Positions 37,625 through 42,270 of a DNA stretch of 64,000 nt are shown piece after piece (position 1 is the first letter of the stretch; each line of letters starts with the position of its first letter). A program made the position numbers and the translations under genes. Source of the DNA: Pseudo-nitzschia pungens (Eukaryota > Bacillariophyta > Bacillariophyceae > Bacillariales > Bacillariaceae); assembly GCA_037355855.1 (NCBI GenBank), contig CM074767.1, positions 1,302,001-1,366,000 on the forward strand, given 5' to 3'. The notes below the pieces were generated by a model. The model worked only from the letters and a program-made list of their open reading frames with translations, ran no database searches and was not told the origin of the DNA.

Positions 37625-40054
37625 ATGGCTCGTGGCAACAATGGCGGCGGCCATTCCAATCCGATGCAAGAGCATCACAAAAAAGCTCGCCAAAAGGAAC
37701 TCCAAAAGAACAAAGAGAGAAGAATTAAGGAACGAGACGAGAAGGCGGTCAAGACAAAAACCATGCGACAAGTTCGTGAAGAGATCCAAAAGTTGGAGCG
37801 AGATATGAAACGACACCACGGACAACAGCAACAAAAATCGGCGGCGGAACACAAATTGGCAAGGCTTCGGAAGGAACTCAAACTCATCCAGGAGGCGGCA
37901 GCTGCCGCAAAAGCCAAAGCTGATGCGGATCGGGAAGCATCGCGGATTGCAAATCAATACAGACAACCACAACGACCTCTCACGGAACTGGACGACCCCC
38001 GAAAATCAGTCTATTACAATGAAATTATGAATCCATACGGGGCTCCTCCCCCAGGGAAGCCTCGATTGTATCACAAGAGATTTGGAGGAGTGACAATGAA
38101 CATTCACGAAGCAATCGTTCCAGGAGAGGAGCCGCAAGTTCCGCCGCCACCGCCGCCACCGCCACCTCGCAATTTTAGAGGTGGTCAACAGCATGAACAT
38201 TCCTCCAATTACCAGCAGCATGACCGAAGAGGACCGAACCGCCATCCGCCACAATCCCATACAAATCGACGATCACAACCACAGAAAGAAGAGGGATCGT
38301 CGACTCATCGAACTTCCCACAAACGACAACCATTGCACATGCCACCTGCCAAGCAATCACCAGAGGAAAAAATAGAAGACAACAAAAATGGTAAAGATGA
38401 ATCACCACTGATTACAAGCAAAGGAAATGAATCTTCTGGTGCTGTAAATTCCTCGTCAGTGGACGAAGTTGAGACTTCATTTGCACCACAATCGGGCATA
38501 AATCCCAAGGATGCGACGTCGAAAAAAACAACCTCGTCCTCAGCAACCGTTCCTTCCCTTCCCGCTCCTTCAAAAGCCGTTCAAAGGACCTTACGCGTGG
38601 CGAAACGAAAGGGTAGAGCGGGCGCTCTAGCAGATATCTGGGCCTCGACCGAAGAGGTGGAATACGAACGAGAAACCAACCTTGTGGATCTGGAAGCTGA
38701 CGATATCGGAACCGCCGCTAAGGTGAAAAAGAAACACAGCAAAAAGATGAAGAAGAAAAAACAGAAACCTCCACTGGAATTTTATTACAGAGACAACTCC
38801 GGAGCCGTGCAGGGGCCCTTTTCGAAAGAGCAAATGCGGGGTTGGATCGACGCTGGGTACTTCCCGCTCACCACCAAGGCGAGGACGAACCGAATGGATC
38901 CGGATGGCTGGGTTCCGATGGGAGATTTACCAGCACTCAAGACTACTGTTGCCCAGAATGACAATTCCATTGGGGCTGCCGGGGCTGCTAACGCGACCGA
39001 TAGCGTACAAGATCGAATTGCAGCCTTGAAGGGAAACACAAACGTTAACGATGATGATCACCTCGACTCTTCGATGCAGGCTCGAATCGCTGCCATGAAA
39101 GCCGACTTACAGGCCTCATCGGCGGAGCCAGGTACAAACGACAAGAACAACGATTTCGGAAACGACAGTGTTCAGGATCGAATAGATGCTCTAAGAGCCA
39201 CTTCGAATCACGACGGTGGAGATTTAAGCGTTTCGGACCCTTCAATCCAAGCCCGAATCGCAGCCATGAAGGCCGACCTGGCTGGATCTGATTCCGGTCA
39301 ACCAAAGGACGAATTCAGAAATGGCGACGAAACCGTCGTAAATGACAGTGTGCAAGACCGAATCGCCGCCCTGAGAAGCAATGCTCCCCCACCACCACCG
39401 CCTGCGCCGCCAGCTTATCCATTGAATGATGACGAACACGATGGCGATAGTGGACCTTCTGCATATCCCCTGAATGGCGATGCGTATCCAGAAGTGGCAC
39501 CATATCCAGTGGATGACGACGACAATGCAGGAGCAGCTGCGTATCCCGTCGACATCAACGACAATGGTGCTACGGCAGCTTCCTATCCCGTGAGTGGTTA
39601 TGAAAACAGCGAGGATGGAATGGTGGAATATCCTGTCGGTTACACTGGTGATGAAGACGGAGTAGCAGCATATCCAGTGAGTGGAAACGACAATGATGGC
39701 GAAGACGCAGTTGCACCGTACCCGACGGACGAGCCCTACCCTGGAGCCGCGGATCTGGCTTATCCTGTCACCGACGCCTACCCAATAGACGACCACAGCG
39801 GCGTGTACGATCCTGCCTCGCATGATGCATCCAATACACCAGCCGCACCCGAAAAGAGAGTTGTGAAGGTAGACAAAGTGTTAGTCTCATTCGTTCCTAC
39901 AAATCTGCAGAATAAGAAACGAAAAGTAGAGAAAGAATCAGGCGGAAATATGATACGTGTTGAAGATTCCGAACCGAATAAGAAGGCCAAATCGACTGGG
40001 GAAGATAGAAATGAGGCCTACGACAAATTCATGGGAGAAATCGACGGATTGTAA
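37625..40054 (+). CDS. WBP11/GYF-domain splicing-type protein with repeated SVQDRIAAL modules
   Basis: Single exon, 809 aa. Residues 1-120 are a WBP11-like start (MARGNNGGGHSNPMQEHHKKARQ, then a Lys/Glu coiled coil). RKSVYYNEIMNPYGAPPPGKPRLYHK and a Pro9 run follow. A GYF domain (FYYRDNSGAVQGPFSKEQMRGW, then GYFPLTTKARTN) occupies ~residues 380-440; it binds proline-rich ligands. Five alternating modules come next, SVQDRIAAL and S(M/I)QARIAAMKADL, each separated by acidic spacers. A long acidic tail carries about a dozen (A/P)YPV/YPL units. The C-terminus has LVSFVPTNLQNKKRK and YDKFMGEIDGL, motifs usual in spliceosomal WBP11/GYF proteins. A nuclear role in splicing is inferred. The Pro tract could bind its own GYF domain. 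Confidence 0.82.
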   Translation: MARGNNGGGHSNPMQEHHKKARQKELQKNKERRIKERDEKAVKTKTMRQVREEIQKLERDMKRHHGQQQQKSAAEHKLARLRKELKLIQEAAAAAKAKADADREASRIANQYRQPQRPLTELDDPRKSVYYNEIMNPYGAPPPGKPRLYHKRFGGVTMNIHEAIVPGEEPQVPPPPPPPPPRNFRGGQQHEHSSNYQQHDRRGPNRHPPQSHTNRRSQPQKEEGSSTHRTSHKRQPLHMPPAKQSPEEKIEDNKNGKDESPLITSKGNESSGAVNSSSVDEVETSFAPQSGINPKDATSKKTTSSSATVPSLPAPSKAVQRTLRVAKRKGRAGALADIWASTEEVEYERETNLVDLEADDIGTAAKVKKKHSKKMKKKKQKPPLEFYYRDNSGAVQGPFSKEQMRGWIDAGYFPLTTKARTNRMDPDGWVPMGDLPALKTTVAQNDNSIGAAGAANATDSVQDRIAALKGNTNVNDDDHLDSSMQARIAAMKADLQASSAEPGTNDKNNDFGNDSVQDRIDALRATSNHDGGDLSVSDPSIQARIAAMKADLAGSDSGQPKDEFRNGDETVVNDSVQDRIAALRSNAPPPPPPAPPAYPLNDDEHDGDSGPSAYPLNGDAYPEVAPYPVDDDDNAGAAAYPVDINDNGATAASYPVSGYENSEDGMVEYPVGYTGDEDGVAAYPVSGNDNDGEDAVAPYPTDEPYPGAADLAYPVTDAYPIDDHSGVYDPASHDASNTPAAPEKRVVKVDKVLVSFVPTNLQNKKRKVEKESGGNMIRVEDSEPNKKAKSTGEDRNEAYDKFMGEIDGL

Positions 40055-40350: not shown

Positions 40351-42270
40351 TCATTTCAACCAGAACTCCTCAATCTCACTTGGTTTCTTAATCCATGAAC
40401 CAAACAAATCCCGCATAGAATCCTTCCATAATTTCTTGGCTCTCTGATATTGCAGTGCAACAGCTTTGTTCTCCAAGTATGATTTCTTCGCTGCAGATGT
40501 ATTAAGTTTGATGAAGGATTCGAATAGATTCTTCTTGCAAATACGAGATTCTTTGCCATGTTCACGGCGCCCAGTCTTGCCGTCGTACACTTCAATATTT
40601 GAAAAATCGTGTTCAGCCCAATTGTAACACAGCTTTTCCCTCTTCTTTATTTGCTCCAATCTTGATACCTGCAGAGGTGCATGCCTTATTCGAGGGTGTT
40701 TCACCTCAAACGGTGTGTGCAATTCGACGCTAGAGATTTTAAGGGCATAATCAGAACGACAACAAATTGCTCTACATATGTGACCATGAGAATAAACACT
40801 GCCAACGATGACACCCGTGATATAAATTGGGTCTATCAGGCGGGATAAAAGAGCACCTTGAACGCCCAGCACAGACCATTTCGCCAGCTTGTCAGAACAC
40901 GAATGATGTATTACACGATCACCCGATCTCAAGCCGTCCAAGCTCTGTGTGACGCTGCCGTGCGCAAGAGAGCCTTGACTAGCCTCTTTTTTGATTCGAA
41001 ATGATCCGTAATGATGCCCTTCCCAGCACAGTGTCGGACTTGGCTGGTCTCTCGAATATACAGCAGAATCGCCGCATGGGGTCTGGGACGTATAAAACCA
41101 TAAGTAGAATCGAGAGGGCAATCGAAATGGTTTGTCGCTTCCTTCATCGTTTTGTTCAACTATCGATTCTACTCCACCTGCATTCAGGAGTTGAGAGTAG
41201 AGCCAACGTATCAGACTTCTTCGAGCAATTACTTCTGCATGAGAATCATGCACCACAGTTCCATTGCAGGTTAGTTTATCACCTGCAGCAAATTTGGTGC
41301 CAGATCCAATGGCTAGCACCCTTGGAAGATCTGACGTCTTCGATGGGTACTTGTGGGTACCAAGAATGAAACCTGCAACAATATCGCTATTCTTTGCAAG
41401 AGCATTTAGACTTCGATATTTCTTCCATATTGCATCTCCACACTTCTTGGCCCATATTTTTTCGTCCCCATATTCGTCGAGGATGTGATGTTTTGACAAG
41501 GATTCCTGGATTTTTTGTTTTGTTTCAGCATTATGAGGACTTGGCTTTCTGTCATCATTGAGACCCGCTTTCCTGCGTTTACCCAAAGTCTCCTCTGAGC
41601 TATATCGTTGGTCCACAACATCCATTTGCCTCTTGTGTGCGAAGTCTTCGACAACCTGATTCAATTTTTCTTCGTTTTTAAATTTTCGTGAAGAAGAGGA
41701 GATGCTGTTGCTGCTGTTGCTGTTGCTGCTGTCGAATGAAGATGAGCTTTTGTGTTCCGTTGCACCAGTGCTTGACGATTGGATCGTCCAAATGGGCGGG
41801 CAGCTGCTTGACCGTTGGATGACCACGGTGTCCCGTTCTAGCCAATAGAGCATTTTGTTTGTTTGGGCAATCGACTTTCCCAAAAACGCAGCTATGTATG
41901 GGGCGCTCATACCATGCTCTTTTCCGTGTTCCGCCACAATGCGAACTAACTTGTGTTCGTCTTGGGTCAGGGTAGTGCAACCGTCGCTGCCATTGCCAAA
42001 ATCGCAGTTTTCGATGACGACGGTTGAAGCAGCTTCGACAGTGGTTGACCAAAAAGGTGGATTTTCGGGCGTCCGTTCGACTAATCCTCGATCCTGCAAA
42101 GCATAGAGAAGTGAATTCATCTCTTTCTTCTCTGTGCCACCACCAATTACTCCCATCAGTTCGGAAACGCGCATGGGATGATCGGAGTTCGCAAGCGTGA
42201 TAAGTATGAGATCCAAAGTAGTCGTTGTCATTCTGATTTCTATGATTTTGCAACGAAAGCGAAAACGCAA
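40351..42270 (-). CDS. Adenosine deaminase (ADAT1/ADAR family) with two N-terminal Z-alpha domains
   Basis: Single exon, 639 aa; a second Met at 42231 ([11 protein letters not shown]) is an equally good start. Residues ~17-77 are a Z-alpha winged helix with the Z-DNA/RNA contact residues of animal ADAR1: Lys48, Asn52, Tyr56 ([11 protein letters not shown]), Pro71-Pro72 and Trp74. Residues ~101-163 are a second one (Asn138, Tyr142, Pro158-Pro159, Trp161). A Ser/Asn-rich linker leads to the deaminase (from ~275): zinc ligands His344 and catalytic Glu346 ([11 protein letters not shown]), Cys399 (TPCGDS) and Cys458 ([20 protein letters not shown]). This converts A to I, either at tRNA-Ala position 37 (ADAT1) or in dsRNA (ADAR). 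No dsRNA-binding domain is present. The tRNA enzyme is the likelier base, the Z-alpha pair the novelty. Confidence 0.92.
41695..41745. repeat. CTG-type trinucleotide run inside the deaminase linker
   Basis: Imperfect TGCTGTTGCTGCTG repeat encoding the Ser/Asn linker between the second Z-alpha and the catalytic domain. Confidence 0.7.

Follow-up and report, generated by a model that had tools for sequence, protein, structure and literature searches.

We report a gene of the diatom Pseudo-nitzschia pungens that encodes two Z-alpha (Za) winged helices, predicted to read left-handed nucleic acids, and a complete ADAR-type deaminase domain, without a double-stranded RNA-binding domain (dsRBD; Pfam dsrm). 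It is located on the minus strand of the window, i.e., a 64,000-nucleotide stretch of contig CM074767.1 (assembly GCA_037355855.1, positions 1,302,001 to 1,366,000; G000:C10:1302001-1366000, where G000 is the 66.9-Mb assembly of 28 contigs). We consider it probable that the two N-terminal Za domains replace dsRBDs as the substrate-recruiting modules of a duplex-RNA editor. Residues are numbered throughout on the 626-aa protein, termed here Za-ADAR, whose features are as follows.

40351..42231, minus strand: single open frame coding for the Za-Za-ADAR protein (626 aa and a stop), matched by the P. pungens protein P0002
42040..42222, minus strand: Za1 winged helix, residues 4-64 (N39, Y43, P58, P59, W61), from Pfam z-alpha (9-66), conserved contacts and AlphaFold2
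41779..41970, minus strand: Za2 winged helix, residues 88-151 (N125, Y129, P145, P146, W148)
41446..41778, minus strand: Ser-rich low-complexity linker, residues 152-262, with basic KRRK at 218, from low AlphaFold2 confidence (pLDDT) and low identity
40354..41487, minus strand: ADAR-type deaminase domain, residues 249-626 (Pfam A_deamin 307-617)
41233..41241, minus strand: H331-A-E333, zinc ligand and proton-shuttle glutamate, identical in 28/28 rows of alignment A2 (see below)
41074..41076, minus strand: C386, zinc ligand, identical in 28/28 rows
40975..40977, minus strand: Gln419, base-flipping position, aligned to 5ed1 (ADAR2 E488Q)
40897..40899, minus strand: C445, zinc ligand, identical in 28/28 rows

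A first-pass annotation, made from the sequence of the window, had described this locus in a diatom-like genome as a 639-aa fusion of two Za domains and a deaminase. The diatom origin and the location hold, with the gene on the minus strand, while the 639-aa reading is set aside, as it opens with TTG. The start ATG is at 42231 and the stop ends at 40351; because the 29 codons up to the upstream in-frame stop hold no other ATG, we assign the protein a length of 626 aa. The nearest protein among the matches listed, P0002 from the Pseudo-nitzschia pungens transcriptome (MMETSP1060, TAXON_ID 37318), is 88% identical end to end over 100% of the query, starts at the same position and contains both Za domains; hence the N-terminal region and the deaminase form one protein in that transcriptome, as the annotation had supposed. 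The gene has a GC content at third codon positions (GC3) of 0.447, similar to the 0.465 of its near neighbour at 37625-40054.

The deaminase domain is matched by A_deamin with E 2.2e-73 over the whole profile (1-329), and the His-Ala-Glu, Pro-Cys-Gly, and Cys-Ser-Asp-Lys motifs are all present; the predicted fold is in agreement. Human ADAR1 (9b83) is the top phmmer match among PDB sequences (E 4.8e-59), followed by ADAR2 and other ADAR chains, and the family profile matches the ADAR1 deaminase chain with E 7.8e-121. Catalytic roles were assigned via ADAR2, in which H331 and E333 correspond by alignment to H394 and E396, C386 to C451, and C445 to C516. These are the ligands given earlier as H344, E346, C399, and C458 of the 639-aa reading.

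Two protein searches, in each of which about 8,000 candidates were scored (120 of 140 and 120 of 131 matches listed), yielded at least 25 close relatives, P0002-P0026; within these, among the matches listed, a species can be read from the label of P0002 only. More distantly related is P0028, a protein of the green alga Cymbomonas. Alignment A2 comprises 28 proteins, namely, Za-ADAR, P0002-P0026, the Cymbomonas protein and the ascidian P0032; Pfam finds A_deamin in 28/28, z-alpha in 23/28, and dsrm in one (P0032), so that dsrm is absent by Pfam from all 26 rows of the Za-ADAR clade, including the P. pungens protein itself, as the annotation had stated for the latter. Five rows (P0006, P0007, P0013, P0014, and P0025) have no z-alpha entry in the precomputed lists and a short N-terminus, and in two of them, P0013 and P0025, 14 residues still align in the Za2 region; hence some of the five may be truncated. 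A single Za was observed in P0010, P0012, P0020, and P0021, and two in 17 clade rows including Za-ADAR. These 17 of the 26 rows, picked for having both Za domains (Za1 of P0026 being cut at the start), form alignment A1 together with the Cymbomonas protein. Conservation was counted on 16 rows, i.e., A1 minus Cymbomonas and the near-copy P0002.

For Pfam z-alpha, the protein reaches 44 bits against a curated cut-off of 21 (E 2.3e-11), with two stretches passing a cut-off of 10 and one, Za1, passing 0.001; in some relatives (P0008, P0015), Za2 is the better stretch. Comparison of the family profile with PDB chains gave 1qbj (ADAR1 Za) on Za1 with E 4.7e-10 and 1qgp on Za2 with E 1.2e-9; ADAR1 and PKZ Za chains fit Za2 as well as Za1, and viral Za domains are also matched. 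Both winged helices contain Asn, Tyr, and Pro-Pro-x-Trp at the positions equivalent to Asn173, Tyr177, Pro192, Pro193, and Trp195, as had been read from the sequence and is borne out by alignment. Over the 16 rows, these five Z-contact residues rank among the most conserved columns in each Za, being kept at 94-100%, while other columns average 51-57%. The linker (155-262) has a mean pairwise identity of 15%, compared with 41-51% in the domains, and its pLDDT is below 50 over residues 153-231. AlphaFold2 models Za1 with helices at 5-15, 22-29, and 35-47 and strands at 51-53 and 61-63 (block pLDDT 71-91, residues 1-60).

This conservation bears on the alternative that the enzyme is a duplex-RNA editor of the ADAR branch whose winged helices have lost Z-reading and serve as ordinary winged helix-turn-helix domains that bind nucleic acids or proteins. 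Such a loss is unlikely, if worth bearing in mind, given the retention of Asn, Tyr, Pro-Pro, and Trp against the lower average of other columns; moreover, the bacterial domains reported to fail lack the N173 and Y177 equivalents, according to PMC11298590, whereas the diatom domains keep both.

At the base-flipping position, Gln419 occupies the place of ADAR2 Glu488 and thus represents the so-called hyperactive state. An acidic residue is found there in none of the 26 clade rows, as opposed to 20/20 animal-type rows. This natural non-acidic clade would provide a biological context for a widely used engineered ADAR mutation. The relative P0009 has Met at this site. Met is also reported there for ADR-2 of nematodes with a shifted editing motif (PMC9989829); taken together, these two cases suggest that target-sequence preference may differ between family members.

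The Pfam family A_deamin is common to ADAT1 and ADAR, and the first-pass annotation had labelled the protein "ADAT1/ADAR". In the careful tree (70 rows, 335 columns), the two sides split with support of 100/98, and the Za-ADAR clade of 26 rows (100/100, stem 0.59) falls on the ADAR side, where it stands beside and not inside the animal-type rows; it is likewise intact (100*) in a quick tree of 67 rows. The ADAR side consists of the 26 clade rows, 20 animal-type rows, and Cymbomonas, and the ADAT1 side of 15 plant or animal and eight diatom rows. Among the latter, the separate ADAT1 of the same genome, on contig C1, groups with seven diatom ADAT1s (100/100). In approximately unbiased (AU) tests, for which groups were named after the trees had been inspected, union of the Za-ADAR clade with the diatom ADAT1s is rejected (p 0.0049). 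That the protein is an ADAT1-type tRNA deaminase of A37 in tRNA-Ala with a decorated N-terminus is therefore hardly credible; the trees and the C1 gene lead us to reject an ADAT1 identity, the undecided label gives way to the ADAR side, and tRNA-Ala A37, proposed earlier as a target, becomes unlikely.

As to sampling, seven of the 20 animal-type rows bear an animal name (P0030, P0031, P0032, P0037, P0039, P0045, and P0050), and the other 13 were assigned by domains and tree position; P0046 and P0051 were relabelled from ADAT1 to animal-type ADAR after the quick tree. The quick tree omits seven proteins without the HAE motif (P0044, P0077, P0082, P0100, P0119, P0121, and P0131), and the ADADs are thus outside the test. 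The careful tree drops the long-branched own_C3_L003 as well as P0122, P0126, and P0129 and gains the seven diatom ADAT1s. Cymbomonas is placed next to four animal-type ADARs (80/89), and a single clade of animal-type ADARs without Cymbomonas is not rejected by the AU test (p 0.17).

On these grounds we propose the following mode of action. Za1 and Za2 would capture, and perhaps drive, left-handed RNA stretches (or left-handed DNA where transcription takes place); thanks to the flexible linker, the C-terminal domain could then reach the right-handed duplex next to them and edit it. In human ADAR2, E488Q increases the catalytic rate, and Gln419, which corresponds to this state, might offset the missing dsRBDs. 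In the nucleus or the cytosol, long or Z-prone duplexes would be likely substrates, whether derived from convergent transcription, retroelements, or RNA viruses.

A number of observations speak against this proposal. Mouse cells lacking ADAR1 and ADAR2 showed no edited sites with an ADAR1 p150 that had intact Za and mutated dsRBDs (PMC8584189), which means that Za alone need not suffice; the diatom enzyme would either overcome this, with two intact Za domains and Gln419, or recruit its substrates by other means. The isolated E488Q domain of ADAR2 is described as binding unmodified duplex weakly, like the wild type (PMC4333395). The 488 position is non-polar in three of the 26 clade rows (two Leu, one Met), and Cymbomonas, without dsrm by Pfam, yet has Glu there, an exception to the idea of compensation. 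Some verified Za domains flip DNA and not RNA, as noted in PMC11298590. Za2 is weak for Pfam when taken alone, failing 0.001, and the positions of K169 and K170 are occupied in it by I121 and A122, so that two lysines are absent. Finally, the structural ranking of Za1 is headed by bacterial transcription regulators, including those of the MarR family, rows less than 1 Z apart counting as ties. Since fold comparison does not single out a Za here, the Za1 assignment rests on sequence; for Za2, the top structural match is a Za. The structural comparison with Za envisaged at first thus gives a partial answer. A Foldseek search with the whole N-terminal model returned multi-winged-helix proteins first (an RNA polymerase III subunit, ScpB, YceH, TFIIIC), which we did not take as meaningful; the ten rows under E 0.001 have root-mean-square deviations of 12.6-18.8 over 150-176 columns.

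With regard to location, ADAR-like proteins were immunostained in the mitochondria of paradinids (PMC11946409), and the diatom protein could by analogy be an organellar editor. We regard this as very improbable: only about five residues separate the start methionine from Za1, and the 29 upstream codons offer no alternative ATG. This argument weighs little, because the paradinid FC901 protein was likewise not predicted to be mitochondrial by its authors.

In animal ADAR1, recruitment by Za is hard to isolate because the dsRBDs also bind duplex RNA, and a natural dsRBD-free Za-ADAR would allow the two contributions to be told apart. The protein is further relevant to the timing of dsRBD gain, a late gain being discussed in PMC4333395, and on the view, expressed in PMC9989829, that animals began A-to-I mRNA editing.

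The origin of the fusion was initially thought to be an independent link between Za and a deaminase. Given the ADAR-side placement, the rejected descent from diatom ADAT1, and the occurrence of the Za-ADAR domain order in a green alga and animals, an invention private to diatoms is disfavoured, and one old Za-ADAR fusion, or a transfer, would fit the data better. Since diatoms and animals are present on both sides of the tree, the ADAR/ADAT1 duplication would predate the diatom-animal split, or else an ADAR line was acquired by transfer, and the tree is compatible with both; the pairing of Za with ADAR may not have begun with animals. We tentatively suggest, as a possibility short of even odds, that the pre-animal fusion represents an early form of ADAR, a dsRBD-free, Z-RNA-recruited editor with a high-activity flipping loop that survives in diatoms and other lineages, and to which animals added dsRBDs, fixing an acid at 488 as a curb on activity. 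If so, diatom nuclear transcripts would undergo A-to-I editing in a Z-directed manner.

A different origin, compatible with the proposed function, is transfer from an animal ADAR1-like gene followed by loss of dsRBDs, in which case the fusion would be of animal origin. The patchy spread is in its favour: among the matches listed, mostly nameless, no Za-ADAR is named for P. multistriata, Nitzschia inconspicua, Cylindrotheca, Seminavis, Fistulifera, Mayamaea, or Psemu1 (presumably P. multiseries), all of which gave ADAT1, and the animal-type ADAR P0035, which has dsrm, contains two Za domains with Asn, Tyr, Pro-Pro, and Trp as read from its sequence. An Ectocarpus survey, too, lists no ADAR homologue (PMC4513859). 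Nevertheless, we consider such a transfer doubtful, as the strongly supported, long-stemmed clade lies beside the animal-type rows and none of its members has dsrm. A viral origin found no support in a family-alignment scan of IMG/VR contigs only, where the pattern matched 20 times and tblastn recovered no relative.

The genome contains three A_deamin genes, i.e., Za-ADAR and two others, and none of the three proteins is matched by the bacterial and archaeal models of NCBIfam.

G000:C1:1965491-1966324 (L002:1201-3000), plus strand: diatom ADAT1, by tree placement and named diatom relatives
G000:C3:7410410-7411372 (L003:1057-3177), plus strand: third A_deamin gene, 706 aa, diverged
37625-40051, plus strand: neighbour with GYF/Wbp11/NpwBP domains (Pfam)

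The relatives of the C1 ADAT1 are named as P. multistriata, Nitzschia inconspicua, Cylindrotheca, Seminavis, Fistulifera, and Mayamaea, in contrast to those of Za-ADAR, which among the matches listed name P. pungens only. The best fetched relatives of the C3 protein, mostly ADAT1s, are 24-31% identical over longer stretches; it has PCGN where the C1 protein and Za-ADAR have PCGD. The GYF/Wbp11 neighbour is convergent with the Za-ADAR gene, their stop codons being about 300 bases apart.

A genome search for z-alpha matched the Za-ADAR locus alone, and there Za1 alone; because Za2 escapes it, a weak Za elsewhere could be missed. No dsrm (PF00035) was found in six frames of the 66.9 Mb, searched exon by exon with three candidates scored, a procedure that split exons or diverged dsRBDs could escape and that was positive in nine of 14 control genomes. 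As neither the protein nor the searched genome shows dsrm, Za-ADAR is ADAR-like by descent of its deaminase and not by the domain make-up of animal ADARs. PIWI, RNase III, and endonuclease V domains are present, the latter being what we take to be a candidate inosine-RNA nuclease; with PIWI and RNase III found, parts of a duplex-RNA pathway exist even though dsrm was not detected.

Among known systems, ADAT1/TAD1, represented by the C1 gene, shares the A_deamin core and differs in lying on the other side of the tree, in having no Za, and in a best stretch that covers positions 1-199 of the 329 of the profile. For Symbiodinium, candidate ADAR-like proteins have been put forward (PMC5357065), and ADAR-like proteins without dsRBDs are reported for 24 protist species, Phaeodactylum being named, with "several other domains" in Fig. 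S6 (PMC11946409), the main text of which contains neither "z-alpha" nor "z-dna". The diatom protein has in common with these Symbiodinium, paradinid, and Phaeodactylum proteins the ADAR-type deaminase and the absence of dsRBDs, and probably belongs to the same wider family; their clade is described as moderately supported, and its sister relation to animal ADARs as not well supported (PMC11946409). A survey of editing in Phaeodactylum attributes about 80% of calls to C-to-U and A-to-I (PMC11857586); it was not counted here in favour of ADAR activity because RNA reads were mapped to a reference genome.

With respect to Za, a 2024 survey places it in ADAR from sponges onward, states that many clades, Symbiodinium and Octopus among them, have a detectable p150, the Za form, and figures diatom Za-related folds under p15-type proteins (PMC11293857); other non-animal examples include a phytoplankton p15 protein and a Symbiodiniaceae ligase (PMC11298590). 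No description of a diatom Za-ADAR was found in the open-licence papers searched. The protein of Cymbomonas tetramitiformis (CYMTET_49821, P0028) resembles Za-ADAR in its ADAR deaminase and lack of dsrm; Pfam recognises one Za in it and alignment reveals another towards the N-terminus, each having Asn, Tyr, Pro-Pro, and Trp. It differs in its green algal source and in Glu at 488.

Vertebrate ADAR1 p150 likewise has Za N-terminal to an ADAR deaminase with the same Zn/Glu active site, and the position of ADAR2 R455 is Ala in Za-ADAR, as in 10 of the 20 animal-type rows. In contrast to the Za-Zb-three dsRBDs-deaminase order of p150, the 626-aa diatom protein has no dsRBD and has Gln instead of Glu at the flipping site, and both of its winged helices keep Asn and Tyr, whereas human Zb has Ile335 in place of Tyr (PMC11298590). 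Prior art consists of dsRBD-free protist ADAR-like proteins and the Za-bearing ADAR asserted for Symbiodinium, and the non-acidic 488 position across the clade, Gln419 in the P. pungens protein, is new here.
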